DNA of 64,000 nucleotides from Rhodospirillaceae bacterium (GCA_902579545.1 CACHHO010000001.1:1-64000), one strand, 5' to 3'; positions 8,142-32,278 are shown, counted from the stretch's first letter. Numbers and translations are program-made. The notes: a model not told the origin generated them from the letters alone.

Positions 8142-8143
8142 AA

Positions 8144-9229: not shown

Positions 9230-9252
9230 TATAAAAAAAAGTTGAGGAAATA

Positions 9253-9936: not shown

Positions 9937-9941
9937 TTAAA

Positions 9942-11384
9942 ATGAACATAGACTTTGATGATAGAATAAGAGATAAGTGTGGTATTTTTGGTGTATTTGG
10001 ACATAAAGATGCATCCGCTTTAACTGCTTTAGGACTACATGCACTGCAACACAGAGGTCAAGAAAGTGCTGGAATAGTATCCTTTGATGGAAAAAATTTC
10101 AATAATCAATTATACTTAGGTTTAGTTGGAGATTATTTTACGAAAGAAAATGTTATTAAAAAGTTGCCTGGAGATTCAGCTTTAGGACATGTCAGATACT
10201 CTACTACGGGAAAAACTTTATTCAAAAATATTCAACCGCTATTCGCAGATCTTCTTGGAGGAGGGTTGGCCTGCGCTCATAATGGAAATCTTACTAACGG
10301 TATAGAGTTAAGAAAAAAATTAGTCAAGCAAGGAGCTATTTTTCAATCTACTTCTGATACAGAGGCCTTAATTCATCTAATTTCTAAAAGTAAAGAAAAA
10401 AGTATAGTAAAAAAAATTATAGATGCGTTATTTGATATTAAAGGAGCATACAGTTTTGGTTTGCTCACAAATAAAAAATTAATTGGTATAAGAGATCCAT
10501 TAGGTATTAGACCTCTAGTAATTGGATCTCTTGGAAACGCCGTTATAATTTCCTCAGAAACATGCGCTCTTGATATTATTGGAGCAAAATTTGAAAGAGA
10601 AGTTAAAAATGGGGAAATAGTGGTAATAGATAAAGATGGAATTAAAAGTTATAACCCTTACTCTAATATTACTGAAAGACCTTGTATATTTGAATATATA
10701 TACTTTGCAAGACCAGATAGTATTCTTGGAGGAAGAAATGTTTACGAATGTAGAAAAGAAATGGGTAAACAATTAGCAAAAGAGTGTCCCATTATAGGAG
10801 ATATTATTATTCCCGTTCCAGACTCTGGCGTACCTGCTGCCTTAGGCTATTCCGAAGAGTCTAATATTCCTTTTGATTTAGGAATAATAAGAAATCATTA
10901 TGTAGGCAGAACATTTATTGAACCAACTCAAAAAATTAGACAATTAGGAATAAAACTAAAGCATAATCCTAATAGAGAATTGATTAAAAATAAAAAAGTT
11001 ATTTTAATAGATGACTCAATTGTTAGGGGTACAACGGCAAAAAAAATAATTGAAATGGTAAGGGAGGCCAATGCCTCTGAGGTCCATATGAGAATATCAA
11101 GCCCTCCCATTAGATTCCCAGACTACTACGGGATAGACACCCCAAAAAAAGAAGAACTAATTGCATCCACACATAATATAGAAGAGATGCGAAAAGAGTT
11201 TAAGCTAGATTCCCTTCATTTTTTATCTGTACAAGGGCTTTATAAATCTATGGGATTTAAAGAAAGAAATGACAAATTTCCTCAGTTTACAGATCATTGC
11301 TTTACAGGCGATTATCCAACAGATCTACCAGATAGAGATGAAGGAGTTCTTTCATCTCAATTATCATTACTAAGCGACAATTAA
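9942..11384 (+). CDS. purF: Amidophosphoribosyltransferase
   Basis: PurF makes 5-phosphoribosylamine from PRPP and glutamine, the first step of purine synthesis. The catalytic Cys13 (DKCGIFGVFG) would be exposed by removal of a 12-residue propeptide. The PRPP loop is VILIDDSIVRGTT. The C-terminal DHCFTGDYPT resembles Fe-S-containing homologues, but the position of another ligand reads FPDYYGID (Asp instead of Cys) and the usual CxxC before CFTG is absent, so a [4Fe-4S] cluster is unlikely. It is 480 aa. Its 3' end overlaps the convergent der by 4 bases. Confidence 0.96.
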   Translation: MNIDFDDRIRDKCGIFGVFGHKDASALTALGLHALQHRGQESAGIVSFDGKNFNNQLYLGLVGDYFTKENVIKKLPGDSALGHVRYSTTGKTLFKNIQPLFADLLGGGLACAHNGNLTNGIELRKKLVKQGAIFQSTSDTEALIHLISKSKEKSIVKKIIDALFDIKGAYSFGLLTNKKLIGIRDPLGIRPLVIGSLGNAVIISSETCALDIIGAKFEREVKNGEIVVIDKDGIKSYNPYSNITERPCIFEYIYFARPDSILGGRNVYECRKEMGKQLAKECPIIGDIIIPVPDSGVPAALGYSEESNIPFDLGIIRNHYVGRTFIEPTQKIRQLGIKLKHNPNRELIKNKKVILIDDSIVRGTTAKKIIEMVREANASEVHMRISSPPIRFPDYYGIDTPKKEELIASTHNIEEMRKEFKLDSLHFLSVQGLYKSMGFKERNDKFPQFTDHCFTGDYPTDLPDRDEGVLSSQLSLLSDN

Positions 11385-12733
11385 CTTTTTTTTATATAAG
11401 GATTCTTAGAAGACAACAGATTAATTCTAATTGGAATACCTTCCAAACTATAATTGTCTCTAATTTTATTTACTATATATCTTTTGGCAGTTTTTGGTAC
11501 TTTTGAGTTTTTATTATGATAAATTGAAAAAGTTGGAGGCCTAATTTTATTCTGAGCTATGTATTTAAATTTTAATGATCCTGTATAATTTTGACTTGTA
11601 GAGTTTTTCCAAATATTGACAAACCATTTGTTCAAGTCAGCAGTTGTAATTTTTTTATTCCACTTTATGTATAATTCAATAATTTTGTCTAATATTTTTT
11701 CTCTATTTTTATTTTCAATAGAGGATAAAAAAAGAGCATTAACTCCTTTGACATCAAAAAAAATATTATTTAATTTACTTAATATTTCTTTTTCTTTTTT
11801 CTCTTTATTTTTAATAAGGTCCCATTTATTGAAAATTAGTAGAATAGATCTACCTTCTTTAATTATATAATTTGATAAGAAAATATCCTGGCTTGAAATA
11901 TTATTTTTTGCATCTATTACTAATATAACGCAATTAGCATATCTTATTTCTTTTCTAGAGAAATATGCTGAAGCTTTTTCTAATGTTTCATTTATTTTTT
12001 TCTTTCTTCTTAATCCTGCTGTATCTATAATTTCAAAATTATATTCTTTATAATTAGTTATAGATAAAATAGAGTCCCTTGTGGTTCCAGAAATAGGTGC
12101 AGTTACTACTCTATCAGAACCATATAATAGATTATATAAAGTAGACTTGCCTACATTGGGTTGACCTACTATTGAGATTCTAATATTTTTTAAGTTAACA
12201 GCTTTTTTAATATTAGTAGTAGTTTTTTTTTTTCTATTTTCTAATTTAGACTTAAGTGCTAAATATAAAACATTCAAAGAATTTTTATTCAATGCAGTAA
12301 TTTCAATATATTCACATCCAAATTCATTTAATTGATATAGAAAATCAGAAGCTTTTTTCAATTCAGACTTGTTTGCCAATAATATAATTTTTTTTCCACT
12401 CATTCTTAGCACATTCCAACATTCCTTATCTTCTGAAGTTAAATTTGTACTACTATCCACAACAAAAAATACTATATCTGCTAAAGCAACTTGGCTTTTT
12501 ATTTGTCCATTAAGTTTCATATTTAACTGGTCTTTTCTTGAGTTGAAACCAGCAGTATCTATAAGATTAAACTCTAAATCATTTATCTCGCATCTTATAG
12601 TTTGGTAATCCCTAGTTAACCCGAATTCATTTCCTGTGATTGCTTCCTTTTTCCCAAGTAAAGTGTTAAATAAGGTTGACTTGCCTACATTAGGTCGGCC
12701 TACTATAACAACATTTGATAATATTTTATTCAA
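11381..12733 (-). CDS. der: Ribosome-associated GTPase Der (EngA)
   Basis: Der is a double-domain GTPase needed for 50S ribosome assembly. Two P-loops are visible: GRPNVGKSTLFN near residue 12 and GQPNVGKSTLYN near residue 190, each followed by DTAG (G3) and NKxxL or NKWDL (G4). The C-terminal KH-like domain is present (YTGSLKFKYIAQ, then RPPTFSIY). It is 450 aa. The start overlaps the bamB stop by 8 bases, in the usual alphaproteobacterial TPR-bamB-der arrangement. Confidence 0.96.
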   Translation of the reverse strand: MNKILSNVVIVGRPNVGKSTLFNTLLGKKEAITGNEFGLTRDYQTIRCEINDLEFNLIDTAGFNSRKDQLNMKLNGQIKSQVALADIVFFVVDSSTNLTSEDKECWNVLRMSGKKIILLANKSELKKASDFLYQLNEFGCEYIEITALNKNSLNVLYLALKSKLENRKKKTTTNIKKAVNLKNIRISIVGQPNVGKSTLYNLLYGSDRVVTAPISGTTRDSILSITNYKEYNFEIIDTAGLRRKKKINETLEKASAYFSRKEIRYANCVILVIDAKNNISSQDIFLSNYIIKEGRSILLIFNKWDLIKNKEKKEKEILSKLNNIFFDVKGVNALFLSSIENKNREKILDKIIELYIKWNKKITTADLNKWFVNIWKNSTSQNYTGSLKFKYIAQNKIRPPTFSIYHNKNSKVPKTAKRYIVNKIRDNYSLEGIPIRINLLSSKNPYIKKS

Positions 12734-14045
12734 TTCTTACTATATCTCCGTTTTTAAGCATTAAATATAATTTTTCTTTCACTACAAAGGGACTAGACGA
12801 TGGCAAATAGGATAGTGTTTTTATTTTCTCTATACTTCCTAAAAAAGGGTCCATTATTAATATTTTTTTATCCCCTCCTACTATCATTAATTTATTATTA
12901 ATTAAAATTGGCGAGTACCAAATATCAAAATTATTTCCAGATAATTTTTCGTCTATCTGCATGCTCCATCTTGTTCCGCCACTAATTAAATCTAAACAAA
13001 ATATTTCCTTATTATTATTTATTAGAAATACACTATTTCCATTTACAGCTGGAGTATGTGACGAATAAAATTCCCTAGTCCAAACTCTGCTACCTGTTTT
13101 TTTATTTATTAATGTTACTTTACCAATAGCACTTGCCAATATTACGAAATTTTCCTTAATAACAGGTATCGCATCAATATCAGTAAAAGAATTTGTAGTT
13201 TCTTTTATTTCTATATCAATAAAAGTATTTCTCCAAATTTGTTTTCCATTAATTGAATTTAATCCAAAGTAATCTCCATTCGAGTAAGCTGCTATTACTA
13301 TATTATCATCTACAGCAACTTTAGGACTATTAAGTAAAGTTGTATTATTAAATATACCTTGGTGTTCCCACAATACAGTTCCTTCATCTATATCTATTAC
13401 CATCAGCTTATTACTTAGGGTTAAAGAAAATACCTTGTTATCAAAGATAGTAGGAGAAGACCTAATAGGGATATCAATGTCTTTAATCCAAATCTCGTTT
13501 CCATTTTCTAAACTTAGACAAATAATTTCGCCGTAAGGTGAGTTAACAAGTAACTTATTTTTATAGATAGCCAACCCTCCCCCAATGCTATGTCCTTTAT
13601 CTCCTTTTAAAGTAATATTCTTTTTCCAATTTGTTTTTTTATTTATTAAACTATATGAAATAATATTACTATCAGCATCTATAAAATAAATGTTATCATT
13701 ATAAATTACAGGCTGGCTCAATATTTTATTTCTACTAGACTCTCCTGCCCCAGAAGTTACTAACTTTATTTTAGAGAAGTTTGTATTAGATTTAAAGTTT
13801 AATGATTCATGAGTAGGTGAATTGTAAGTTTGCATCCAATTATTTTTTGAAATTAACTCCTCTAATTCTACCTTCGTTTGACTTACTTCAGGAACAGTTT
13901 CCTTTGATCCTTCTTTTAATATTGAGACTCTTTTTCCTGGTAATTTTATTTTTTTTTCTTCAAACCCTAAAAACTCTCTAGTTCCACAACTAGTAAATAG
14001 CAAAAGAAATTGAAAAAGAAATAAAAAATTAACTACTGTTTTCAT
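12726..14045 (-). CDS. bamB: Outer membrane assembly lipoprotein BamB (PQQ-like beta-propeller)
   Basis: This is a lipoprotein of the BAM complex that helps insert outer-membrane beta-barrels. It has a lipoprotein signal with lipobox FTSC and then repeated PQQ-like blades with WxxN/D segments (TNWKKNITL, GNEIWIKDIDI, GTVLWEHQG, GKQIWRNTF, GSRVWTREF, GTRWSMQI), about seven blades in all. I choose the ATG at 14045 (MKTVVNF) rather than one 15 bases upstream because it gives a proper signal peptide. It overlaps the TPR gene and is followed by der. Confidence 0.88.
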   Translation of the reverse strand: MKTVVNFLFLFQFLLLFTSCGTREFLGFEEKKIKLPGKRVSILKEGSKETVPEVSQTKVELEELISKNNWMQTYNSPTHESLNFKSNTNFSKIKLVTSGAGESSRNKILSQPVIYNDNIYFIDADSNIISYSLINKKTNWKKNITLKGDKGHSIGGGLAIYKNKLLVNSPYGEIICLSLENGNEIWIKDIDIPIRSSPTIFDNKVFSLTLSNKLMVIDIDEGTVLWEHQGIFNNTTLLNSPKVAVDDNIVIAAYSNGDYFGLNSINGKQIWRNTFIDIEIKETTNSFTDIDAIPVIKENFVILASAIGKVTLINKKTGSRVWTREFYSSHTPAVNGNSVFLINNNKEIFCLDLISGGTRWSMQIDEKLSGNNFDIWYSPILINNKLMIVGGDKKILIMDPFLGSIEKIKTLSYLPSSSPFVVKEKLYLMLKNGDIVRIE

Positions 14046-14685
14046 AATACAGATTAACATTATTAATCATTTCTATTGCTCTACTTCTAATTGAGCTTGA
14101 TGCTTGTTGATTATTAATTATTTTATTAAAATTTTTCAATGCAGTGCTATAGTCTTTTTTTTGAAAGTAATAGTGACCTCTTAATTCGTATGCTAACATT
14201 GCCCACATTCCTCCATAGGACAATAAGTTATTTATATTAGCATCAAAATTTTCTGTATTTCCTTTTTCTAGATATACTTGTGCATAATAAAAGTTAATAA
14301 TTCTTTTTAATCCATTAGATTTTACATTATTTTCTATTTTTATAAGTGTTTCTAAGGCAGAGTCTAATTCATTTTCTTCAAGATATAACTTGAAAATAAG
14401 CAAATTAGATAAATCTTTATAAGCTCCTTTATCTAATTTTTCTAATTTTATAAGTTCCTGCTTTGCCCTTTTTGGGTCTGTTTCAATTATTGATAAAATT
14501 TCTACGTAATACTCTGATAGTTTAGCTTTTTTATTATTTTTACTATTACTATATAATGAAAAACCTATAGCAACTATTAATAAAAAAGAGGTAATACCTA
14601 TAATTCTAAATTTAAACTTATTAAAAAAAGATTTTATCTTATCAAGATAAACCTCATTATCTATGTCTGAAAAAGGATCACTCAA
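14029..14685 (-). CDS. Membrane-anchored TPR protein of the YfgM type
   Basis: This 218-aa protein has a short cytoplasmic N-terminus, a single membrane helix (about residues 27-45, FRIIGITSFLLIVAIGFSL) and a tetratricopeptide-rich periplasmic part (YYAQVYLEKGN, LRGHYYFQKKDYSTALKNF). Proteins of this type lie upstream of bamB and der in many proteobacteria; E. coli YfgM is an ancillary SecYEG factor. The start is a TTG preceded by GAGGTAA. The operon is this gene, bamB, der. Its exact role here is inferred from position. Confidence 0.75.
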   Translation of the reverse strand: MSDPFSDIDNEVYLDKIKSFFNKFKFRIIGITSFLLIVAIGFSLYSNSKNNKKAKLSEYYVEILSIIETDPKRAKQELIKLEKLDKGAYKDLSNLLIFKLYLEENELDSALETLIKIENNVKSNGLKRIINFYYAQVYLEKGNTENFDANINNLLSYGGMWAMLAYELRGHYYFQKKDYSTALKNFNKIINNQQASSSIRSRAIEMINNVNLYYENSS

Positions 14686-20149: not shown

Positions 20150-20605
20150 ATGATTATATTTTCTAAAAAAAATAACAATGAAGCTAGCGCAATAAAAGAG
20201 TTTAAAATAGGTCAAAAATATACTGAAGAGTGGACACCAACGTTAAATGATATAAAGAAATATGCTCAACTTTCTGGGGATTATAATCCTATTCATATAT
20301 ATAAAGAAAGTGCAGAAAAATTAGGTTATAAACTAAACATTGTTCACGGCAACCTAACTTGTTCCTTTATATCAAAAGTTGTGGGGATGAACTTTCCAGG
20401 TAAAAATAGTTTAATCATAGAACAAAATATTTCTTTTCCTAATTCAATTTATCCTGATGATACTATCAAGTTTGATTTTATAATTTTATCAGTAAATAAT
20501 GCCTTTAAAGTTCTTGAAATAAAAGTTAAAGGTATAAAAATTGATAGTAAATTTACTAATAGTATGAATACTGTCTTAAGAGGTAAGATAATATGCAAAG
20601 TTTAA
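20150..20605 (+). CDS. MaoC-like hotdog dehydratase/hydratase
   Basis: This 151-aa protein has a single hotdog domain with the hydratase-2 motif SGDYNPIHI (Asp44 and His49 catalytic) and a substrate-cleft segment VHGNLTCSFI. MaoC-type enzymes hydrate or dehydrate (3R)-hydroxyacyl/enoyl thioesters on CoA or ACP. It overlaps the following SDR by 13 bases and begins a rightward group with SDR, FkbH-like HAD, ACP and MBOAT, so an ACP-bound substrate is plausible. Confidence 0.85.
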   Translation: MIIFSKKNNNEASAIKEFKIGQKYTEEWTPTLNDIKKYAQLSGDYNPIHIYKESAEKLGYKLNIVHGNLTCSFISKVVGMNFPGKNSLIIEQNISFPNSIYPDDTIKFDFIILSVNNAFKVLEIKVKGIKIDSKFTNSMNTVLRGKIICKV

Positions 20606-21339
20606 AAGCGTCGCCTATTTTGATATTTGGAGCATCTGGCACTATTGGTAGTTATTCAGCTCAAATGCTGAAAAAAAATAATTTTCAAGTCCTACTTTCT
20701 AGTAGTAGAAAAAATAAGAAATTAAAAGATCTAAGTTATAGACTTAAATCAGACTATTTAGGATTCAACCTTACAAAAGACTTTGATGCTAATATGTTAA
20801 GAAAAAAAATTAAAAAATACACTTCTAGTTTAAGTGGCATAATAATATCAGTAGCCTTACCTTTTCCTAATAAGTTTTTACATAACACTGAGGATAATAT
20901 TCTAATACGACAATTAAAAATTCATGTTATAGCTTTAGATAAAATTATTAAATCATGCTTGCCTTTATTAGAAAAATCTAAGAAAGATTTTGTTCCTAGA
21001 ATAACATATATTTCTACTGAATATTTAATAGGGAGCCCACCTATAAAAATAGGACCCTATTTAGCAGCAAAAAGCGCTGCTACTACATATGCTAAAGTAT
21101 TAGCTAAAGAATTAATAAATAAAGGTATTAAAGTTTTTATAGTTTCTCCAGGCATGATTAAATCTAACTTGACAGCTGAACTTCCTGAAGAATATATGGA
21201 ACAAATAAAAAAGGACCTGCCAGGTAAAAGACTTACATCTGCAAATGAGATAGCTTTGACAATAAATGCTATTTATAAAGGTTATTTAGATGCCTCATAT
21301 GGAAATGAAATTCAAGTATCAAATGCAGAAAGAAGATAA
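20593..21339 (+). CDS. Short-chain dehydrogenase of the ACP/O-acylation cassette
   Basis: This 248-aa SDR has the cofactor motif FGASGTIGSYS and the catalytic Tyr-x-x-x-Lys in GPYLAAKSAATTYA, with Ser in YISTEY. The segment ISVALPFPN occupies the usual NNAG position and is divergent. It overlaps MaoC upstream and the FkbH-like gene downstream, so it is probably co-translated with them. Together with MaoC it could form or reduce a hydroxyacyl thioester. The actual substrate is inferred only from context. Confidence 0.82.
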   Translation: MQSLKASPILIFGASGTIGSYSAQMLKKNNFQVLLSSSRKNKKLKDLSYRLKSDYLGFNLTKDFDANMLRKKIKKYTSSLSGIIISVALPFPNKFLHNTEDNILIRQLKIHVIALDKIIKSCLPLLEKSKKDFVPRITYISTEYLIGSPPIKIGPYLAAKSAATTYAKVLAKELINKGIKVFIVSPGMIKSNLTAELPEEYMEQIKKDLPGKRLTSANEIALTINAIYKGYLDASYGNEIQVSNAERR

Positions 21340-23119
21340 AAACAAAGCTAAAAATGAACTAGCAGGCTACTTAAAAAGCTCAACTTATTTAGATTTAAAA
21401 CCTGAAATTGCAATGCAAATAGCAAAAAGATTAGTAAAAAATAAACAAATGTTGGATAACAAGTTAAGCAATATTAAGCTTTCAATATTATCTAACTTTA
21501 ATTTAGATTTTATTAAAGAATCTATAGAGTTCTGTTTATATCAAAGAGGACTAAATGCTACTATAATCACTTGTGACTATGGAACTATGATTACAGAATT
21601 AATTAATCCAAAAAGTCAAAATTATAACTTTCAACCTGAATATATTTTAATATGGCCAACATATAGAGACATAACTAAGTTTGATGAAGGACCAAGAAAA
21701 GAAGTTTCTTTTTGGTCTTCCTTATGGAAAATATCAAAAAAAAAAAATATTAAAATTTTTCAAGTGCTATTTGATAAACCTCCATTTTTACACATAAAAG
21801 ATTTAAACAATAAAAAAAATATAGATTTATGCACACATATTTCATACACAAATGCAGAACTACAAAAAAAATATAAAAATAATATTAGCTTTATATCCAT
21901 AGAAAAACTTCAAATTCATATCGGCTCTAAAGAATGGCATGATCAAAGAGTTTATAACTTATGCAAACAACCCTTTTCACTTAATGCCGTGCCTAGTATT
22001 TCTCATTTTCTATCCTCTAATATAGCAGGCATGTTGGGGAAGTATAAAAAAGTTTTGATATTAGACTTAGACAATACACTTTGGGGAGGGGAAATAGGTG
22101 ATTTAGGGGTAGATAATATTATTTTAAATAGAGAAACCAGCGAAGGAGAAAGTTATATTAATTTTCAAAAATATATCAAGGAACTTCATAGTGCTGGTGT
22201 AATTTTAGCAGTTTGTTCTAAAAATAATATGAGAACAGCAAAAGAAGCTTTTTCTAAACATCCAGAAATGATTTTGAAACTTGATGATATAGCCTGCTTT
22301 GTTGCCAATTTTAATGATAAAGCATCTAACATTACTTATATTAAAAAATTTCTTAATATAGACTTTGATTCATTTGTTTTCGTGGATGATAGCAGAATAG
22401 AATGTGAATGGGTAAAAAATAATATTCCGGATGTTAGTGTAGTTAATTTAAAGGGAGATCCTTCTTACTATATTAATGAATTGGATAGGCATGGTTTCTT
22501 TACAAAAGAAAAAATTACAAAAGAAGATAAAAATAGAATAAAGTCTTACAAAGCAATAAGAGAAATAGAAAAAATAAAGAAAAATAATATTAACCTTGAA
22601 GCGTTTTTAAAAAGCCTTAATCCTATTTTAATTTTAGAAAGTGTATCTTCCTTTACTATTGATAGGATTGAACAGCTAATATTAAAGACTAACCAGTTTA
22701 AATTAAACAACTCTATATATGATAAAAAATATATAAAAAATAATAAAAATAATATTTTAGCCTTTAGATTTAAAGATAAACTAAATGACTATGGCATAGT
22801 GGTAGTTTTAGTATATGAAACTTCTAAAGAAGTATTGTACATTAAGAATTGGGTTATGAGCTGTAGAGTTTTCCAAAGAAATATTGAATTTGCAATAATA
22901 CAATTAATAAAAAAAATAGCTAAAATACGATCATGTAAAAAAATTAAGTTAGAATTGGTTAAACTGAAGAAAAATAAAGTAGCAATGGAAGCATTAAAGA
23001 AAATGAATGCTAAGGAATCTAAAGTTTCCTCAATATATGATATAAATATAGATTCAAATCTAAAAAGCGATTTAATAAAAATTAAAAATATAAAAAAGGT
23101 TTTAGAAAATGGGAAATGA
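21323..23119 (+). CDS. FkbH-like HAD-superfamily protein
   Basis: This protein is about 598 aa. An N-terminal region (about 1-235) resembles the SGNH-like part of FkbH proteins. A HAD domain follows with DLDNTLWGG (motif I, at about 248-256 from this start), then VCSKNN and FVFVDDSRIECEWV, and a C-terminal acetyltransferase-like region. FkbH proteins in polyketide pathways use 1,3-bisphosphoglycerate to load a glyceryl unit on an ACP. An ACP is encoded directly downstream with overlap, fitting that role. The start may instead be 21290; no good SD separates the two. Confidence 0.85.
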   Translation: MQKEDKNKAKNELAGYLKSSTYLDLKPEIAMQIAKRLVKNKQMLDNKLSNIKLSILSNFNLDFIKESIEFCLYQRGLNATIITCDYGTMITELINPKSQNYNFQPEYILIWPTYRDITKFDEGPRKEVSFWSSLWKISKKKNIKIFQVLFDKPPFLHIKDLNNKKNIDLCTHISYTNAELQKKYKNNISFISIEKLQIHIGSKEWHDQRVYNLCKQPFSLNAVPSISHFLSSNIAGMLGKYKKVLILDLDNTLWGGEIGDLGVDNIILNRETSEGESYINFQKYIKELHSAGVILAVCSKNNMRTAKEAFSKHPEMILKLDDIACFVANFNDKASNITYIKKFLNIDFDSFVFVDDSRIECEWVKNNIPDVSVVNLKGDPSYYINELDRHGFFTKEKITKEDKNRIKSYKAIREIEKIKKNNINLEAFLKSLNPILILESVSSFTIDRIEQLILKTNQFKLNNSIYDKKYIKNNKNNILAFRFKDKLNDYGIVVVLVYETSKEVLYIKNWVMSCRVFQRNIEFAIIQLIKKIAKIRSCKKIKLELVKLKKNKVAMEALKKMNAKESKVSSIYDINIDSNLKSDLIKIKNIKKVLENGK

Positions 23120-23363
23120 AGAAAAAATTTTAAAAAAATTAGAAAAAATTTTTCAAATAATTTTTGATGACTATAGTTTGAGGCTTTCAAAAAATATGAC
23201 TGCTGAAGATATTGAGGAATGGGATAGTTTGAATCAAATAAAAATTATTTTAGCCTGCGAAAAAGAATTCTCGGTGAAGCTTAATGTAAGGGAAATAAAT
23301 AACTTTGCAAATATAGGAGAAATGGTAACACACCTTAGTAATTTGGAAGCTAACATTGAATAG
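23109..23363 (+). CDS. Dedicated acyl carrier protein
   Basis: This 84-aa carrier protein has its predicted phosphopantetheine Ser40 in EEWDSLNQIKI. The site reads WDSL rather than the ADSL of the housekeeping acpP at 3242-3475, as in carriers of FkbH-type and exopolysaccharide or polyketide systems. It overlaps the FkbH-like gene by 11 bases and precedes the MBOAT gene, so it probably receives a unit from FkbH and delivers it to the membrane enzyme, as DltC does for DltB. Confidence 0.88.
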   Translation: MGNEEKILKKLEKIFQIIFDDYSLRLSKNMTAEDIEEWDSLNQIKIILACEKEFSVKLNVREINNFANIGEMVTHLSNLEANIE

Positions 23364-23371
23364 GATTAGCC

Positions 23372-24835
23372 TTGTTATTTAGCAGTGAAATATTTTTATG
23401 TATATTCCTTCCTATTAGTTTAGCAGCTTTTTATATAATTAAAAAAACACAATATAAAATAGAATTATTAATTATTTCATTATTATCTTTGTTTTTTTAT
23501 GCCTGGAATGACCCCAAATGGTTACTTTTATTATTATCTTCAATAATATTAAACTATATATTTGGTCAGGTCATATTTAGAGAAAAACGAAAATTCTTTT
23601 TGGAAGTTGGAATATGCCTTAATTTGTTTATCATAGGGTGGTTTAAGTATAAATATTTTTTCCTAGGTTGGGCTTTCCCTGAAGAAAATAAAATAAATTA
23701 TTTAATACCACTAGCTATTTCATTTTTTACATTCCAACAGATTTCCTACTTAATTGATATTAAAGATAAAATTGTAAAACCACTTAAGTTTCTAGACCAC
23801 GTTTTTTATGTTAGTTTCTTTCCACAATTGATTGCTGGCCCTATAGTTTTAGCAAAAAATATAATTCCACAAATAGTACAAATAAAAAATAAAATTTTTT
23901 CTCTTAATTTGTTTATTCTGGGTACAGTAGTTTTTTTTATAGGTTTGTTTAAAAAGGTATATTTAGCGGATAATTTGGCACCATTTGTAGATTTAGGTTT
24001 TAGTCTAATAGATAATGGTTTAACTTTTCCTGAAGCTTGGGCAATAGTATCAGCCTTTGCGCTTCAATTATATTTTGATTTTTCAGGCTATTCAGAGATG
24101 GCAGTAGGTTTAGGACTTCTTTTTGGATTTAGGCTACCAGTAAACTTTAATGTACCTTTCAAATCCGTGTCAATGATAGAATTTTGGAAAAAATGGCATA
24201 TTTCTGTAACTAATTTTTTTATGCTTTATGTTTATTCTCCTTTATCACTTTATCTAAATAGACTAAAGATTGGTAAATTTTCTCAGAACTATCTTCTTAT
24301 GTTAATAATCCCAACACTATTTACTTTTTTTCTTTCTGGCTTATGGCATGGAGCAGACTGGAAATTTGTATATTTTGGCCTTATAAATGGCATAGCATTA
24401 ATAATTAATCATTTTTGGAAAATATTTAAACTTCCCAAACTTCCCAAATTATTTTCATGGTTTCTAACTATAATAGTGGTTTTAATATCTTTTGTTTTTT
24501 TTAGAGCAAATGATATTGATGAAGCCTTAAAGCTTTTATTTATAATGTTCAATCCTAGTTTGCTTTTTCTTCCTGATTGGTTCAGTAATTATTTTAATAT
24601 AGCTATAGGCATAAATTTTTCAGTACTTCCTTTTTTTCTAACTGGTACATTTTCATTAAAGTTTCTTGTTATTTTTTTGTTCTGTGCATACTTATCATTA
24701 GCGATTCCAAATGTAGCAGATAAAAATTTTAAATTAGCCTTTAGTTGGAAAAACTCTTTTTATTTAGCTGTAGTAATTTTATTTTCCTTATCAGGAATAA
24801 ATGAAGAAGTATCATTTATTTATTTTCAGTTTTAA
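23372..24835 (+). CDS. MBOAT-family membrane O-acyltransferase
   Basis: This is a 487-aa polytopic membrane protein of the AlgI/DltB type. The family region QLYFDFSGYSEMAVGLG, the motif FWKKWHISV (His276) and the catalytic-type SGLWHGADW (His326) are present, with about ten membrane helices. MBOAT proteins pass acyl groups across or at the membrane to a surface polymer. The TTG start is preceded by an AGGA. It follows the ACP by 8 bases. AlgI-like proteins work with an SGNH partner, and one is encoded downstream at 25635. Confidence 0.92.
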   Translation: MLFSSEIFLCIFLPISLAAFYIIKKTQYKIELLIISLLSLFFYAWNDPKWLLLLLSSIILNYIFGQVIFREKRKFFLEVGICLNLFIIGWFKYKYFFLGWAFPEENKINYLIPLAISFFTFQQISYLIDIKDKIVKPLKFLDHVFYVSFFPQLIAGPIVLAKNIIPQIVQIKNKIFSLNLFILGTVVFFIGLFKKVYLADNLAPFVDLGFSLIDNGLTFPEAWAIVSAFALQLYFDFSGYSEMAVGLGLLFGFRLPVNFNVPFKSVSMIEFWKKWHISVTNFFMLYVYSPLSLYLNRLKIGKFSQNYLLMLIIPTLFTFFLSGLWHGADWKFVYFGLINGIALIINHFWKIFKLPKLPKLFSWFLTIIVVLISFVFFRANDIDEALKLLFIMFNPSLLFLPDWFSNYFNIAIGINFSVLPFFLTGTFSLKFLVIFLFCAYLSLAIPNVADKNFKLAFSWKNSFYLAVVILFSLSGINEEVSFIYFQF

Positions 24836-24855
24836 AAATAAAATAATATATGACT

Positions 24856-25419
24856 TTATAATTTATTAATTTTTTCTTTATTGTAACCTACGATAACCAC
24901 ATCAATTCTTTTTCCATTAAATACTGCATCATTTATTTTTTTTCCTTCTACTTTAAATCCACATTTTTTAAAAACTCTTTCTGAAGCCTTATTGATCACG
25001 TAATAACCTGCTGTAACTTTTTCAAGCTTTAGTTTAATGGTAGCAAATTCAAGTACTTTAGTAACAGCAAGTGTAGCTATTCCTTGCCCCCAAAAACTCT
25101 TATTACCTATGAAAAATGATATCTCTCCTTTTTTATGATGCCATTTAATTTCACCTATCTTTATGTTACCTATGTGTATTTCATCAAAATATATACCAAA
25201 AAGAAAGTCAGAATTTGAAGAAAATTTATTTTTAACAAAATTTTTTATGTTTATAGTGTTCTGTTTTGAGAATCTTATATCAGTATATTTTATAACTTCT
25301 TCATCATTTAACCAACTAACATATTCTTTTGTTATGTCTTTTTCTGTCAAAATTTTTAAGTAACAATTCTTATTTATTGTTAGAACAATATTTTTTTTTT
25401 CACTAATTTCTATGATCAT
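24856..25419 (-). CDS. GNAT-family N-acetyltransferase (RimJ/RimL-like)
   Basis: This is a single GNAT domain of 188 aa from the ATG at 25419; a TTG at 25437 would add six residues. Visible features are YVSWLNDEEVIKYT near the N-terminus, the acetyl-CoA loop segment FWGQGIATLAVTKVL, and NKASERVFKKCGFKVEGK. This subgroup includes sugar-nucleotide amino-acetyltransferases as well as RimJ-like enzymes. It sits on the opposite strand inside the surface-modification island, so a role in making an N-acylated sugar is possible but unproven. Confidence 0.85.
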   Translation of the reverse strand: MIIEISEKKNIVLTINKNCYLKILTEKDITKEYVSWLNDEEVIKYTDIRFSKQNTINIKNFVKNKFSSNSDFLFGIYFDEIHIGNIKIGEIKWHHKKGEISFFIGNKSFWGQGIATLAVTKVLEFATIKLKLEKVTAGYYVINKASERVFKKCGFKVEGKKINDAVFNGKRIDVVIVGYNKEKINKL

Positions 25420-25634
25420 TTCCTTTAGGTAAACCAAATACTTTTGACATTATTATAATAATCCCCGTTTTTTTATAAAGATTATCAACATAATAAGTTA
25501 TATATTAATTTTTAAACTAAAGATATTTATTAATTTGTAATATATTATACCTCAATTTATATACTATAATATTGGCTTTATGATATTAGCTTCTATAATA
25601 TAACTATTTTAAAATATTATTTCTATTTACAAAT

Positions 25635-26669
25635 ATGAGAAAAATAAAAAATAAAAAAGCTATTACGTTTTTATTGTTTAAAATACCATTTTGTATCCTT
25701 ATGGTAATAATATTCTTTGAGTTAATTTCTTATTCAATCAGGGATTATAGAGCTATAAGGCATGGCTTAGATAGGAAAGTAGCTAAGATAGAAAGTTTAA
25801 ATTATATACATAGTCTGGATTTTATATTATTTGGTGATAGTGTTACAAAAGATATAGCAGATAAGTATAATTTAATACCTCAAAATTTAAAAGCTTTAAA
25901 CCTTACTACTAACAAAGCTAGTGGTTTAATAGGGTCTTATTTACTTTATAAGAAATTATTAGAAAAAAGTGAACCTCCGAATAAACTAATTATAAGTTCT
26001 ACTCCTGGATTCTTAACTTATTTTCCACAACATAAAACAAAAGAACTATATTTAAATTCAGTATTTAATAGTAAAAAAGATAAAAATGAAATAAGCAAAT
26101 ATTATAGTTCAAAAAAACAAAAGGTTTCTTATTATAAAATTCTTACAAAGTTTAAAAATAAATATAAACTGACAATATTTAATATTAATGAAAAAATTAT
26201 TTATCCTATTATAAATTTTCTTGGTTTCATTAATATAAATGATGCTATAACCTTTGGTAAAATAGAAGTTCCAAATATAGAATTGCTTAAAAGTTTAGAA
26301 AGTAATAAAAAAATTATTAACTATGAATTCTATGAAAGTTCAATTGATATAACTAAAGAATTTGAATTACTAATTAACAATTTCTTCAAACTATTAAATT
26401 CTAATAAAACTGAAATATATGTTATATGGGCACCCTTAAGAAGTAATTATTATGAAAGTTTATTAAAAACAGGAGATTTAATAATTCTAGAAAATTTTTT
26501 AAAAGAAAAAGCTAAAACTTATAATCTCAAATTAAATATTTTTGATATTTCTGATGCATATCCTTTTCCTCCTATTGCTTTTCGGGATGTCGATCACCTT
26601 AAGCAAGGTTATTGGAAAGCATATTATTCTTATATTTTAAAAAAACATTTAAGTACTACTCACTACTGA
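25635..26669 (+). CDS. Membrane-anchored SGNH-hydrolase-like protein, likely MBOAT partner
   Basis: This 344-aa protein has one N-terminal membrane helix (about residues 10-33) and then an extracytoplasmic domain. SGNH block I is visible as FILFGDSV (Ser69), and block V as DVDHL with Asp318 and His321 near the C-terminus, the D-x-x-H arrangement of SGNH enzymes. AlgJ/AlgX, PatB and DltD, partners of MBOAT proteins, share this architecture. It lies downstream of the MBOAT gene, separated by the opposite-strand GNAT and a gap of about 200 bases. Its role as the final acyl-transfer enzyme is inferred. Confidence 0.65.
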   Translation: MRKIKNKKAITFLLFKIPFCILMVIIFFELISYSIRDYRAIRHGLDRKVAKIESLNYIHSLDFILFGDSVTKDIADKYNLIPQNLKALNLTTNKASGLIGSYLLYKKLLEKSEPPNKLIISSTPGFLTYFPQHKTKELYLNSVFNSKKDKNEISKYYSSKKQKVSYYKILTKFKNKYKLTIFNINEKIIYPIINFLGFININDAITFGKIEVPNIELLKSLESNKKIINYEFYESSIDITKEFELLINNFFKLLNSNKTEIYVIWAPLRSNYYESLLKTGDLIILENFLKEKAKTYNLKLNIFDISDAYPFPPIAFRDVDHLKQGYWKAYYSYILKKHLSTTHY

Positions 26670-26692: not shown

Positions 26693-28603
26693 CTATTCTA
26701 AAGTACAGAATTGAATTTCAAGTTTATTTTTCAGAAAAAGTTTTTCGTTCCATATTTTGTTTAAGATAGATTCTTCTCTTCCTGAAAAAATGGAGATGCT
26801 TTTGACACTATTAATTTTATTCACTATCTCATTTGGCATATCTTTCTGCCAGTTTTTTGAAAGGTTTACTAAAAATCCTTCTGTAGCACTTTTATTTTCT
26901 AATGGTAAATTCCTATAAGTAATTTTATTATTTTCATAATTATATTTTTTTACAGAAACTGGTATGGGCTTAAAAAATATACTTACTATTTGGTCTAAAA
27001 TACTTCTTTGATAAAATATCTTTATAATTTTTGTCTTATTTTGAATATCTTTCAAATTAATTTGAGAACCCCATCCTATAATTTTTTTTTCAGAGCAAAC
27101 TTGATTTAATTGTATTTTTTCTTTTCTTCTTTTATATAAAAAAAATATACTAGAGATTTTTTCAATATAATAATAGTTTTGGTATAAACTTAGGAAAGAA
27201 TGACTAAATGGGTCAAGATCGCTTTGCTGATAAACTAAGTTTAGTCTTCCTGAATCATCTAAGTAATTAGAGTTTTTGAGAGATATATAATTACTAGAAT
27301 TCATATAATTAGTTACTCCTGGAACTACATCAAAACTTTTTATTTTTGAATTTATAAAAGGAGTAATAAAATTGACAAATAATGTATACTTTTGAGTAGG
27401 TATTTCTTTATTATAAAAATTATACTCTGCATTAAGATATTTTGATTTTGTACTACTGGCGTTACTTAGTAATACGTCCTTTAATCCTTCCCACTGCATA
27501 ATAACTCTATTAAACTTACCCTCAAACATTGTTTTAGTAGATGGCCACAATAAAAATGAAAGTAATATGCCTACAATTACAATATAAATTAAACTCTCTG
27601 GTTTATGCTTTAAAATTAGTATTTTATTATTAATACTATTTGTATTAGTTGAAAAGTATAGGAATATAAATATTGGAAATGTAATAAGTGCCCTTATCAT
27701 ATGTTCTCCATCTTGCCTTAAAAAACCAGTTTTTATTAAAATTAAAAAAAATAAGGAATATAAAGTAGTCATAATCCAATTAATAATATAAAGCTTACTT
27801 TTACTATTTTCTGTAAGACTTATTTTATATAAACTATAAATAATTGATGCTAAAAATAGAAAATATAAGATTATATTTCCTTCTTCTGCAAAAATTTGGC
27901 TATATGCATTAGATATTTTAAATATTGATGTAAAGTAAAGGGTCAAATCTTTTATATTATGATTAGCCAGATAACTTACAATAATAATAGATAATAATAA
28001 TATAATGCTATATGAAAAATTATTTTTCTTTGACCTTAATTCAAGAAAAAATAACATTAATATATTAATTAGAACTATAATAGTATAACTACCTTTTGAT
28101 AAAGCAACAAAAGCAGAAAAAAACAAATAAGAAAATAAAAATAATGAATACTTTTTTTTTATTACTTCATATAGAATTGGTATTATAAATAGATAAAGTA
28201 ATGACCTAGCATCAGTTGATAAAGATAAGGCACTTATTATAAAAAAAAAAATTATAAATTTTAAAAGAGGATTTATATCAGTTTTATTTATAATTTTAAA
28301 TAAGGCAAAAACTAATAATATGGAAACTATTACTTGTATAGTTAACACGTAAATATAAGTTTCTGGATGAAATACAGAATAATTTAGAATAGACCAAGGT
28401 CCAGCTGTTATTAGTATATCTGTTCCATATTTAAGTCCTTTATAAAAAGCTTCATGCAAATACCATAAGAATGAATAATCACCATCAAGCTGTAAATCCT
28501 TAAACCTCCAAAAAGGCCATAAGAAAACTGCTAAAAGAGTTAGACCTATTTCAAATAAATATGAAGTTTTTACTTTATTTGTGTAAAAATTAAAAAACTT
28601 CAT
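26693..28603 (-). CDS. Large polytopic membrane protein of unknown function
   Basis: This 636-aa protein has about ten to twelve hydrophobic helices in the first 350 residues and a long C-terminal extramembrane part (about 365-636). I recognise no family motif. A charged segment near the first periplasmic loop (QLDGDYSFLWYLHEAFYKG) and FLRQDGEHMIRA later recall the overall plan of GT-C glycosyltransferases or polysaccharide-processing membrane proteins, but that is weak. It is the last gene of the leftward operon with the C-methyltransferase, epimerase and GT2-methyltransferase fusion, so a role in surface-glycan assembly is likely. Confidence 0.6.
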   Translation of the reverse strand: MKFFNFYTNKVKTSYLFEIGLTLLAVFLWPFWRFKDLQLDGDYSFLWYLHEAFYKGLKYGTDILITAGPWSILNYSVFHPETYIYVLTIQVIVSILLVFALFKIINKTDINPLLKFIIFFFIISALSLSTDARSLLYLFIIPILYEVIKKKYSLFLFSYLFFSAFVALSKGSYTIIVLINILMLFFLELRSKKNNFSYSIILLLSIIIVSYLANHNIKDLTLYFTSIFKISNAYSQIFAEEGNIILYFLFLASIIYSLYKISLTENSKSKLYIINWIMTTLYSLFFLILIKTGFLRQDGEHMIRALITFPIFIFLYFSTNTNSINNKILILKHKPESLIYIVIVGILLSFLLWPSTKTMFEGKFNRVIMQWEGLKDVLLSNASSTKSKYLNAEYNFYNKEIPTQKYTLFVNFITPFINSKIKSFDVVPGVTNYMNSSNYISLKNSNYLDDSGRLNLVYQQSDLDPFSHSFLSLYQNYYYIEKISSIFFLYKRRKEKIQLNQVCSEKKIIGWGSQINLKDIQNKTKIIKIFYQRSILDQIVSIFFKPIPVSVKKYNYENNKITYRNLPLENKSATEGFLVNLSKNWQKDMPNEIVNKINSVKSISIFSGREESILNKIWNEKLFLKNKLEIQFCTLE

Positions 28604-28613
28604 AAAATTTAAT

Positions 28614-30098
28614 TTAACCTTTTTTATTTCCTGATTTTTCTCCTACCAATATTACATAGGTAAAAAGATCTTTTATACTAAATGACCATTCTTTAGGTAT
28701 AAAACCATTTTTTTGTAGCAAATTAAAAGCTGCTTTTTTGTTTTTTATTTTATTAGGTTCTTCTGGGTGTAATTTATTATTATTTTTTAATATATATTTC
28801 ATAAAAAAATGTATTATATGCAATGCTATTACGCTTAAACCAAATACAGGAGGCCAAAACAAAATAATTTTACCCCCTTTTTTTGTTACTCTATTAAATT
28901 CTATCAATATTTTTTCAATTTCTTCTTTAGAAAAATGCTCCATTACTCCTAAATTATAAATACCATCTACTTCATTATCTTTAAATGGTAGCTTAAAAAT
29001 ACTTGCTTTTTTAATTTCAACATTTTTATTATGGTTTTTTTTATAAACTTCTAAAGCTTGTCTAGATATATCCACTGCTTTTATTTTCATTTTATTTACA
29101 ATATTAGTATCCACTTCTCCACTTCCACAGCCAGCATGAATTAATGTACTTCCCGGTAAAAAATATTTATTTATATATCGATCAAGGTTAGGTCTAATTA
29201 AATATTTCCTATAAATATTAGCAATCATATCGTAAAAATGAGAGCTATGCTCTTCAGATTTTTTTTTATTTTTAAGTGACCAATATTTATCCCATTCAAT
29301 TTCTGAGTTTTTTCTATTATTTAAATATTTTTCTTTATTAGTTACTTTTATGCTTTTAGATAAGAAAATAGTTTTTAGAAAAAAACTAAATAAAAAAAAT
29401 AGGCTAGAAAATATATCCTTAATTTTCATTTTTGAAGACCCATATGTCCTAGCTGGTAATGCTATAGCTTTTTCGGTTATTGAAAAGTTATTTTTCCACA
29501 ATAAATACATACTTTCCCAAAAGAAGGAATACGAAACAGATTTTATTTTTTTAAAAACTTCAATATCAATTTTATGTATATTATACAATCTATAAGCGCC
29601 TGTTGAATCATATGGTGTGCCTAAAAAAAGGTATATAAGAAAACGAGCAACTTTTGTGAGTAGTTTTCTATGAATAGCCCACGTTTCTAACCCTTCCTTT
29701 TTTTTAAACCTATTTGTAGTAACTATATCAAATTCTTTTCCTAGCTTTAATATATCTGGGATAAGTTTTGGATCATGTGAAAAATCGCAATCCAAAGTTA
29801 ATACTTTTTTATATTTATTTTTATAACCATATTTAATTCCTTCGATATGTGCAGAACCTACTCCTAGTTTACCTCTCCTGCTGATCAAATTTATTCTTTT
29901 TGACCTTTTTGTCATGTCTGCAACTATTTTACCTGTACCATCAGGAGAATTATCGTCTACTACTAAAATATCACAGTCTATGGGAAGAGAACTTATAGAG
30001 TTAACCATTCTTGTGATATTATTTTTTTCATTATATGTTGCTAGCATAACTAATAAATCATGCCTTGCCCTAATTTTTTTTTTATTATTTATTTTCAT
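28614..30098 (-). CDS. Fusion of Dpm1-like GT2 glycosyltransferase and SAM-dependent methyltransferase
   Basis: Residues about 13-235 form a GT2 domain of the dolichol/polyprenyl-phosphate mannose synthase type: LATYNEKNN, VVDDNSPDGTG (46-56) and TLDCDFSHDP (101-110). A hydrophobic patch at 232-247 could anchor it. Residues about 290-494 are a class I methyltransferase with motif I HAGCGSGEVD (321-330), AVDIS, and LGVMEHFS. It overlaps the epimerase gene by 14 bases. It may charge a polyprenyl phosphate with a sugar that is also methylated, or methylate a neighbouring sugar; both are inferences. Confidence 0.85.
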   Translation of the reverse strand: MKINNKKKIRARHDLLVMLATYNEKNNITRMVNSISSLPIDCDILVVDDNSPDGTGKIVADMTKRSKRINLISRRGKLGVGSAHIEGIKYGYKNKYKKVLTLDCDFSHDPKLIPDILKLGKEFDIVTTNRFKKKEGLETWAIHRKLLTKVARFLIYLFLGTPYDSTGAYRLYNIHKIDIEVFKKIKSVSYSFFWESMYLLWKNNFSITEKAIALPARTYGSSKMKIKDIFSSLFFLFSFFLKTIFLSKSIKVTNKEKYLNNRKNSEIEWDKYWSLKNKKKSEEHSSHFYDMIANIYRKYLIRPNLDRYINKYFLPGSTLIHAGCGSGEVDTNIVNKMKIKAVDISRQALEVYKKNHNKNVEIKKASIFKLPFKDNEVDGIYNLGVMEHFSKEEIEKILIEFNRVTKKGGKIILFWPPVFGLSVIALHIIHFFMKYILKNNNKLHPEEPNKIKNKKAAFNLLQKNGFIPKEWSFSIKDLFTYVILVGEKSGNKKG

Positions 30099-31044
30099 TA
30101 ATTTCTATTCTCATCAACTCATTAATCATATCATAAAATGAAACCTTAGGCTTCCAGCCAGTAAATTTTTTTATTCTACTAATGTCACCTACTCTAGGTA
30201 CAGCTGCAGAGGTTTTATCCTTAAATTTTTTATCTAATCTTACATACTTTTTATAATCTAATCCTTGGGACTTAAATGCTATTTCAATATAATCACGAGT
30301 AGTATGGCCTTTTCCACTTGCTATTATATAATCATTAGGAACATCAGAACTTAAACACAAGAACATTGCTTCAACGACATCTGTGACATAACTCCAATCA
30401 ACAATTGATTCTAAGCTTCCTATTTTTATATTATTTAATTTGCCTTTAATAATATTCTTTATACCTAAACTTATTTTTTTTGAAAAAAAAAGACTATTTC
30501 TTCTAGTAGACTCATGGTTATATAAAATTCCTGACATACAAAATAGGTTATGATTATTTTTATAGTAATTTGCTATCTCCATACCTAATGCTTTGGATTG
30601 TCCATAAATATTTAAAGGATTTATTGGGTGTTCTTCATTTTGTGGATATTTCTTTGGATTGCCAAATATGTGAGAAGAAGATGCATAAAATACTTTACAC
30701 TTAGGAACATAATTTAATACAGCATCCAAAACATTTAGAAAACCTTCAACATTAACTTTATAACTCAATTCATAAAGATCTCTAGTTGGTAATATATTAT
30801 TATTTTGTGATGAATTATGAAATGCAGCCAGGTAGTAAATTTGTGATGGGTCTATTCTTTTAATAAACCTATTTATGTCTTCTCTTGATTGTAAATTATA
30901 TTTATTTTTAATAGTTTTAGAATCTACTAATAATTGATTTTTTGAAAAGCCTGTAACCTGGTATCCTTTCTTTCTCAATAAATTACTCAAATAGTATCCA
31001 TCTTGTCCTGTGTGACCAAATATAAGTGCTCGCTGTTTAGTCAT
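30085..31044 (-). CDS. NAD-dependent sugar epimerase/dehydratase, GDP-mannose 4,6-dehydratase-like
   Basis: This 319-aa extended SDR has the cofactor motif GHTGQDGYYL typical of GDP-mannose 4,6-dehydratases, then YYLAAFHNSS, the catalytic Ser in YASSSHIFG, and Tyr-x-x-x-Lys in IYGQSKALG. True dehydratases usually have more residues and a Glu after the SSS segment, so the reaction could be dehydration, epimerisation or 4-reduction. It overlaps the C-methyltransferase by 8 bases, matching pathways that make branched or methylated deoxysugars. Confidence 0.85.
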   Translation of the reverse strand: MTKQRALIFGHTGQDGYYLSNLLRKKGYQVTGFSKNQLLVDSKTIKNKYNLQSREDINRFIKRIDPSQIYYLAAFHNSSQNNNILPTRDLYELSYKVNVEGFLNVLDAVLNYVPKCKVFYASSSHIFGNPKKYPQNEEHPINPLNIYGQSKALGMEIANYYKNNHNLFCMSGILYNHESTRRNSLFFSKKISLGIKNIIKGKLNNIKIGSLESIVDWSYVTDVVEAMFLCLSSDVPNDYIIASGKGHTTRDYIEIAFKSQGLDYKKYVRLDKKFKDKTSAAVPRVGDISRIKKFTGWKPKVSFYDMINELMRIEINENK

Positions 31045-32278
31045 TTAAAAAAATCTCAAATTTTGGTAAAGGAAAGATTAAAGCTCCTCCTTTTCTTAAA
31101 AATTCAGCTTCTCTAATAATAAATTCTTTTTTAAAGTGCCACGGCAAAACTAAATAATAATCGGGTTTTTTATTTCTTGAAATTTCTTCACTATTTATTG
31201 GTATTTTAGTTCCAGGAGTAAAGCACCCTAATTTTCTAGGGTTTCTTTCTGCAGCCATCTCTATTTGCGAAGAGTTAAAATAACAATATTGTAATAAAAC
31301 ATTTCCTTTTGTAGAAGCACCATAAATATGTATTCTTTTTCCCTTTTCAGTTTCTTTATCAATAAAACTTTTTAATTTATTCATCTCACTATTACAACTT
31401 TTCATAAAGTTATGATATGTCACAGATTCTGTTAAAGATAATTTTTTTTCCTTTTCTATTAATGAAGAAACTTTATTTGCGTTTATTTTAATTGAAGACC
31501 TTTTATTACATACATATAATCTGTGGCTACCACCATTAGAATCATTTAAATCTGCATCAAAAATAACAAATTCATGTTTTGCAAGTAAACTTTTCAAAAC
31601 TGTTATTGAATAATATTCTAGATGCTCATGACATATGGTATCATAAGAATTTGCCTGAATCATTGATCCTAAGTCTGATTGCTCTAAAACCCATATACCT
31701 TCTTTGTCTAATATATTTTTTACAGATTCAACAAAGTTATCTGGTTTTTCTAAGTCATATAAAACTGCTATTGATGTAACCACTTTAAATTTATTATTTT
31801 TAGTGTAAGGCTTTAATACTTCTGCATTAAAGAAAGAAGGTATCTTTATTATATCTTCTTCATAATATTCACCAAATTGCTTGGATGAAGGGTCTACGCC
31901 AAATCTATTAAGTTTTTTATTTTTATAAGCATTAAGTAGTGTTCCATCGTTACTAGCAATATCTAGTACATAATCTCCATCATTAAGATTGACTTTGCTT
32001 TCTACAGATTTAACTATTGATGCTAAATGATTACGCATAGTTGAGTTTATTCCAGACCTGTAACCATAATTATCATGATAAAGTAAATCTTGTGATACTG
32101 AATGCTTAAGCTGAACTAAACCACAATCTGAACACTTTACTAATATTAAAGAAAACCTTTCTACTTCCTCGTTAATATCTTTTGGAAAAACACCAGAAAG
32201 AGCTTGTTTTCCTAAATTTACTACTTCTTCTAAATTATTTGAATTACATATTCTACATGCATTAATAGTATTGATCAT
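31037..32278 (-). CDS. Sugar C-methyltransferase (NovU/TylCIII-type)
   Basis: This 413-aa protein has the three-part layout of nucleotide-sugar C-methyltransferases. An N-terminal zinc-binding domain has CRIC (near 9-12) and CSDCG (near 53-57). The SAM-binding core has DIASNDGTLL. A C-terminal domain has IYGASTKGNVLLQY. The characterised relatives C3- or C5-methylate 4-keto-6-deoxy sugars, which fits the dehydratase-like gene just downstream. It heads the four-gene leftward operon; the promoter should lie in the 232-base gap 32279-32510. Confidence 0.85.
   Translation of the reverse strand: MINTINACRICNSNNLEEVVNLGKQALSGVFPKDINEEVERFSLILVKCSDCGLVQLKHSVSQDLLYHDNYGYRSGINSTMRNHLASIVKSVESKVNLNDGDYVLDIASNDGTLLNAYKNKKLNRFGVDPSSKQFGEYYEEDIIKIPSFFNAEVLKPYTKNNKFKVVTSIAVLYDLEKPDNFVESVKNILDKEGIWVLEQSDLGSMIQANSYDTICHEHLEYYSITVLKSLLAKHEFVIFDADLNDSNGGSHRLYVCNKRSSIKINANKVSSLIEKEKKLSLTESVTYHNFMKSCNSEMNKLKSFIDKETEKGKRIHIYGASTKGNVLLQYCYFNSSQIEMAAERNPRKLGCFTPGTKIPINSEEISRNKKPDYYLVLPWHFKKEFIIREAEFLRKGGALIFPLPKFEIFLND

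Follow-up and report, generated by a model that had tools for sequence, protein, structure and literature searches.

A conserved six-gene cassette joining a putative FkbH-type loader and an acyl carrier protein to an MBOAT/SGNH acyltransferase pair in Alphaproteobacteria

Genes and motifs at the locus

The window, by which we mean the whole 64,000 nt stretch analyzed, comes from a Rhodospirillaceae bacterium (GCA_902579545.1 CACHHO010000001.1:1-64000). It carries six same-strand genes for a MaoC-type hydratase/dehydratase, an SDR reductase, an FkbH protein, a stand-alone acyl carrier protein (ACP), an MBOAT acyltransferase and an SGNH/DltD-like membrane-anchored protein (Table 1). A preliminary description of this DNA had listed six open reading frames and their signature motifs, and each was found in its place (SGDYNPIH, DLDNTLWGG, WDSLNQI, WHGADW, GDSV, and a D-x-x-H that reads DVDH). 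As it had also stated, the first five genes overlap or lie at most 8 bases apart: MaoC and SDR share 13 bases, SDR and FkbH 50, FkbH and ACP 11, and 8 bases separate ACP from MBOAT. Not listed in that description, a minus-strand GNAT acetyltransferase gene lies between MBOAT and SGNH, so that in the window the operon is broken before the SGNH gene. In five related loci (L007, L033, L034, L036 and L130) the MBOAT and SGNH genes are about 10 bases apart or overlap. Because the relatives have no gene at that position, the GNAT gene is apparently a later insertion, and we place it outside the cassette.

Table 1. Features of the cassette and the interrupting gene, in window coordinates.
Feature	Position	Strand	Basis
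MaoC-type hot-dog hydratase/dehydratase	20150..20605	+	PF01575, 5.5e-16
SDR reductase, FabG/YmfI-like	20593..21339	+	PF13561, 5.8e-19
FkbH	21290..23119	+	TIGR01686, 6.6e-70, above curated cut-off
Stand-alone acyl carrier protein (ACP)	23109..23363	+	PF00550 (PP-binding), 1.2e-05
MBOAT acyltransferase, DltB/AlgI-like, TTG start	23372..24835	+	PF03062, 1.7e-17
FIYFQF hexapeptide, MBOAT C-terminus, residues 482-487	24815..24832	+	Sequence
GNAT acetyltransferase, between MBOAT and SGNH genes	24856..25437	-	PF13302, 2.8e-20
SGNH/DltD-like membrane-anchored acyltransferase	25635..26669	+	Residues, AlphaFold model

The FkbH protein scored 235.8 bits against TIGR01686, for which the curated cut-off is 146.65. 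It has an N-terminal SGNH-like domain, a HAD domain (DLDNT) and a C-terminal GNAT-like domain with a Ser-Cys-Arg triplet (S524, C525, R526). Asp259, Asp261 and the triplet are kept in aligned relatives, and each of 120 FkbH proteins that we compared has the triplet. We dropped the cysteine of a CSKN motif (C309) as a universal acyl site, since it is not universal and C525 is. By sequence, it matched the solved structure of BF1531 (3slr, 2.4e-52); the predicted model likewise matched BF1531 (1.6e-26), as well as SGNH folds, GNAT acetyltransferases and HAD phosphatases. FkbH proteins charge carrier proteins with glyceryl derived from 1,3-bisphosphoglycerate (PMC4979870, PMC8949500, PMC7489565), and family membership points to the same loading role here. 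The phosphopantetheine site of the ACP is Ser40 (codon 23226-23228), which does not vary among eight ACPs encoded at FkbH loci. The suggestion that FkbH stands in for an adenylating enzyme was borne out insofar as no cassette gene contains an AMP-binding family.

The SGDYNPIH motif of the MaoC protein includes Asp44 and His49, and D44, N46, P47 and H49 are invariant in an alignment of five sequences. The SDR has a GASGTIG cofactor motif, with Tyr156 and Lys160 invariant in aligned relatives. Its best NCBIfam match was EF_P_mod_YmfI, followed by 3-oxoacyl-ACP reductase, both below cut-off.

The MBOAT scored 64.2 bits against PF03062 (cut-off 27) and is the single one detected in the window's genome, which is 68% complete. 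The catalytic His326 lies in a WHG motif (codon 24347-24349); both H326 and H276 are invariant in aligned relatives. Sequence comparison matched DltB structures (8.9e-25 and 1.1e-24), and the score against the DltB equivalog TIGR04091 (149.1 bits) was far under the cut-off of 375. The C-terminal FIYFQF, also missing from the preliminary description, fits the FXYXXF acyl-shuttle pattern, and Tyr484 is kept in aligned relatives. In PatA the tyrosine of this motif has been shown to carry the acyl group from the MBOAT to its SGNH partner, and the same is reported for DltX (PMC12148441). A strict C-terminal FXYXXF was present in 36 of 56 MBOATs adjacent to FkbH genes, several of the others being cut by contig ends or short DltB-like forms.

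The SGNH-like protein matched no Pfam family, and searching its sequence against solved structures gave noise only. A hydrophobic stretch at about residues 9-32 corresponds to an N-terminal membrane helix. The candidate catalytic residues are Ser69 of the GDS motif and His321 of Asp318-x-x-His321. The GDS and His321 are invariant in five aligned sequences; the position three residues before the histidine reads D/D/N/D/E, so it is Asp in three of the five and Asn or Glu in two relatives. An AlphaFold model (mean pLDDT 71, with residues 160-233 below pLDDT 50) matched DltD best (E 3.8e-4, probability 0.99), with further matches to platelet-activating-factor acetylhydrolase, GDSL lipases and PatB. 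The residues and the modeled fold expected of an MBOAT/SGNH pair are thus present, consistent with the role first proposed for it, moving an acyl group across the membrane.

Conservation of the cassette and FkbH neighborhoods

We found the cassette, whole or partial, in six other alphaproteobacterial genomes, three of which have the complete set arranged as in the window. In L007, from the same genus, the six are contiguous, the SGNH gene starting about 10 bases past the MBOAT gene, and the flanking genes differ. L034 also has the full ordered set, as does L036, where a POT-family (PTR2) transporter gene (6891-8240, minus strand) sits between ACP and MBOAT. L037 runs from MaoC through SDR, FkbH and ACP to the contig end; L130 retains the end of FkbH followed by ACP, MBOAT and SGNH; and L033, on the same contig as L050, has FkbH, ACP, MBOAT and SGNH with MaoC and SDR not nearby. 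Nearly all catalytic motifs are invariant among these relatives, the exception being the Asp of the SGNH DxxH. That three other genomes repeat this gene order in full is beyond chance, and the six genes are one unit. Failure of the genes to co-occur elsewhere had been named beforehand as the first of several grounds for rejecting the original interpretation; we found that co-occurrence holds at the subfamily level and more loosely across phyla. The core of that interpretation passes this main test, and as a whole it is partly supported.

The distribution of the cassette is patchy between related genomes. Searching 385 alphaproteobacterial genomes with an SGNH-subfamily profile produced six matches; the five strong ones all lie within the cassette, and the sixth, which is weak, is next to another MBOAT. 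FkbH was present in 37 of the 385 genomes sampled. Within 5 kb of the 40 alphaproteobacterial FkbH loci, an ACP was found at 26, an MBOAT at 17 and a MaoC gene at 15. The 17 MBOAT neighbors compare with about 0.08 expected by chance, a figure derived from 188 MBOAT matches in the 385 genomes at an assumed 3 Mb per genome. Assuming four MBOATs in every 1.5 Mb genome gives a very conservative expectation of 1.3.

When a single FkbH sequence was scanned against public genome contigs, no relatives were found. An alignment of six cassette FkbH proteins recovered 541 relatives, and we used the closest 80 of these, a sample biased toward relatives of the query. These 80 loci come from many phyla, and ACP, MBOAT, MaoC and SDR genes recur around them. 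In a Magnetobacteriaceae locus (L076), SDR, MaoC, FkbH, ACP and MBOAT follow one another, and a weak SGNH match comes next. FkbH-ACP-MBOAT sets with neither MaoC nor SDR nearby are common (L033, L017, L131 from Sinorhizobium meliloti, L132 from Rhodobacteraceae).

The set in S. meliloti 2011, a strain in standard laboratory use, places a relative of the core on the pSymB plasmid (622000-642000; within this segment, 9205-14405, minus strand). Alongside FkbH and ACP it includes an SGNH-like protein, and its MBOAT ends in FLYQGF; it has no MaoC or SDR and lies near genes resembling capsule export. FkbH matches occur in 40 Sinorhizobium plasmid records. In Clostridium-type loci (L065:893-7167 and L087:3747-11523) at least two SGNH/GDSL-like genes surround FkbH, ACP and MBOAT, which suggests several transferases per loader.

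MaoC, SDR, FkbH and ACP lie within amino-sugar clusters with aminotransferase and GNAT genes at L081:3068-8705 and L013:2913-10112, so it seems that the loader can be swapped between N-acyl and O-acyl transfer. At L010:8883-11342 (minus strand) FkbH is part of an 819-residue protein whose start, by eye, resembles an AAC(3)-type N-acetyltransferase; it lies next to a MaoC-SDR fusion and to what look like genes for nonulosonic-acid synthesis. The FkbH proteins of L027, L035 and L044 are about as long. This arrangement suggests that the FkbH product may N-acylate sugars directly.

The transferred acyl group and its acceptor

FabF-type ketosynthase genes were absent within 5 kb of all 40 alphaproteobacterial FkbH loci and near 78 of 79 FkbH loci; FabH-like genes were near FkbH at three loci only. 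We rejected chain extension on this basis, since without a ketosynthase there is no local extension. Two alternative readings are affected. MaoC and FabG-like SDR proteins are the usual (R)-3-hydroxyacyl enzymes, and they could supply a group such as (R)-3-hydroxybutyryl from fatty-acid CoA or ACP intermediates, with FkbH in a side role. We consider this improbable, because the cassette itself contains no ketosynthase, related ones have almost none nearby, and FkbH, the most widely shared member, would be left purposeless. The genes might instead form a cytoplasmic operon for a polyketide-like secondary-metabolite starter unit, with the MBOAT present by chance; FkbH, ACP, dehydratase and ketoreductase are indeed typical polyketide parts. 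However, neither a ketosynthase nor a peptide synthetase is present, the MBOAT/SGNH pair is conserved with the set, and several related modules lie within surface-sugar clusters, so we give this reading very little credence. We are instead fairly confident that the MBOAT/SGNH pair acylates an acceptor outside the cytoplasm and is fed by the ACP, with FkbH as the loader.

In several lineages FkbH has beside it either neighboring MaoC and SDR genes or a single fused one. The fused MaoC-SDR protein adjoins FkbH in L010, L013, L027, L031 and L046, and such a fusion is expected if the two enzymes act in succession. Several other long MaoC matches were ruled out as fusions; these five were confirmed. 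The preliminary description had MaoC and SDR tailoring the thioester. That part stands in refined form: given FkbH as the sole loader and no ketosynthase, the simplest conversion would be glyceryl-ACP to lactyl-ACP. Since glyceryl thioesters are 3-hydroxyacyl thioesters that bear an additional hydroxyl at position 2, dehydration by a MaoC-type enzyme would give enol-pyruvyl and hence pyruvyl, which a ketoreductase would turn into lactyl. The loading module for bryostatin, with FkbH, a dehydratase, a ketoreductase and a carrier protein, is predicted to make lactyl-ACP from 1,3-bisphosphoglycerate in this way. A table in PMC7901079 gives FkbH loading as 1,3-bpg + ACP -> D-lactate-ACP. If the cassette performs the ACP-fed acylation described above, we moderately favor lactyl over glyceryl as the group transferred.

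The main rival is that plain glyceryl is transferred by the MBOAT/SGNH pair, with MaoC and SDR minor or acting on another substrate. FkbH is an established glyceryl loader (PMC4979870, PMC8949500, PMC7489565), and glyceryl transfer must also be workable, because the sets in L033, whose SGNH and MBOAT belong to the same subfamily as those of the window, and on S. meliloti pSymB have no MaoC or SDR nearby, as is common among FkbH-ACP-MBOAT sets. Against this, the MaoC and SDR genes are closely linked to FkbH, overlapping in the window and fused to each other beside it in several lineages, and their active sites are intact. We therefore regard glyceryl as a serious but rather unlikely answer for this cassette.

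O-antigen ligase genes (Wzy_C) lie directly beside the SGNH gene in L130 and directly beside the MaoC gene in L036, which makes an O-antigen-like polymer the likeliest acceptor. From gene neighborhood, we judge such an acceptor reasonably probable. In the window's genome, an O-antigen ligase is encoded elsewhere. A putative ligase lies beside the L007 cassette. Instead of an O-antigen-like glycan, the acceptor of the same transfer machinery might be peptidoglycan, a lipid or a small secreted molecule. Among relatives of the pair, the best understood modify peptidoglycan (PatA/PatB) or teichoic acid (DltB/DltD) (PMC12148441), and the window's flanking genes are not conserved. The ligase genes in L036 and L130 speak against another acceptor, and the patchy distribution suits a variable surface polymer better than peptidoglycan; we hold this alternative to be unlikely.

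A sugar operon occupies 26693-32278 of the window on the minus strand. It encodes a 636-residue membrane protein, a fused GT2-methyltransferase, a GDP-mannose 4,6-dehydratase-like protein and an NDP-hexose C-methyltransferase-like protein. The earlier proposal that this neighboring operon makes the acceptor is not supported, since relatives do not share the neighborhood; because their neighbors differ, we also dropped the idea that the cassette is part of that operon.

A four-step pathway can be proposed. FkbH, going by its family, would take the activated C3 unit of 1,3-bisphosphoglycerate, strip the phosphate and load glyceryl on the ACP. MaoC would then dehydrate the 2,3-dihydroxypropionyl (glyceryl) thioester to enol-pyruvyl and thus pyruvyl-ACP, and the SDR would reduce the pyruvyl ketone to give lactyl-ACP, by the logic of the bryostatin loading module. 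Through His326, the MBOAT may move the acyl group from the ACP to its own C-terminal Tyr484 as an ester, much as PatA does with acetyl-CoA. At the outer membrane face, Ser69 of the SGNH protein would accept the group and pass it on to a surface glycan at its hydroxyls; the most likely glycan is O-antigen or an LPS or capsule polymer related to it. For the full sequence of steps, with lactyl as the group and some surface glycan as the acceptor, our confidence is about even; it combines deduced chemistry and a deduced acceptor with observed gene content, order, conservation and folds.

More tentatively still, the cassette may belong to a widespread class of surface acylation that uses 1,3-bisphosphoglycerate as activated donor. 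In this class FkbH and ACP, with or without conversion to lactyl by MaoC and SDR, would feed MBOAT/SGNH pairs in many phyla, and these would O-lactylate or O-glycerylate surface glycans; the loader would also serve N-acylation in amino-sugar clusters. If such a class exists, surface polymers from Alphaproteobacteria to Bacillota should carry lactyl or glyceryl esters. The cost of acylation would be a glycolytic acyl-phosphate rather than ATP or CoA.

Comparison with known acylation and loading systems

No published description of the cassette was found in the mostly open-access literature, where absence is no proof. Within the same literature, and with the same caution, the only paper that treats both FkbH and an MBOAT is a review of aeruginosins, which concerns unrelated steps. 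Papers on the gellan and sanxan genes name no FkbH-type glyceryl system.

The Dlt system for D-alanylation of teichoic acid (DltA, DltB, DltC, DltD, DltX) shares with the cassette an MBOAT and an SGNH partner and, as predicted here, a carrier-bound donor. As in Dlt, a dedicated ACP accompanies the MBOAT, and this is kept in relatives. However, Dlt relies on a DltA-type adenylating enzyme, whereas the loader here would be FkbH, and the shuttle hexapeptide that Dlt has on a separate DltX is on the MBOAT itself. The cassette also differs from Dlt in having MaoC and SDR and in its Gram-negative host.

O-acetylation of the PatA/PatB and AlgI types has the same two-protein layout of MBOAT and SGNH, with a C-terminal FXYXXF on the MBOAT (PMC12148441). 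PatA uses acetyl-CoA without a carrier (PMC12148441), whereas the cassette operon encodes an ACP and a putative dedicated loader. According to that 2025 paper, MBOAT/SGNH pathways outside Dlt have no carrier protein (PMC12148441), a statement to which the cassette would be an exception. It seems to work in the manner of both Dlt and PatA/PatB yet to belong to neither, having no adenylating enzyme or separate DltX and encoding a carrier protein, which PatA-type systems reportedly do without.

The glycerate-utilization modules for tetronates, methoxymalonyl-ACP and vioprolide also have FkbH and a carrier protein, and their C3 unit likewise comes from 1,3-bisphosphoglycerate. In contrast to them, the cassette has no ketosynthase, FabH-like or NRPS partner, and its output is a membrane acyltransferase pair. 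Loading of D-lactyl as in bryostatin uses PKS domains, where here separate proteins would feed an MBOAT. The cassette would thereby join three things known only apart: glyceryl loading by FkbH, carrier-fed membrane transfer as in Dlt, and the MBOAT shuttle motif of PatA.
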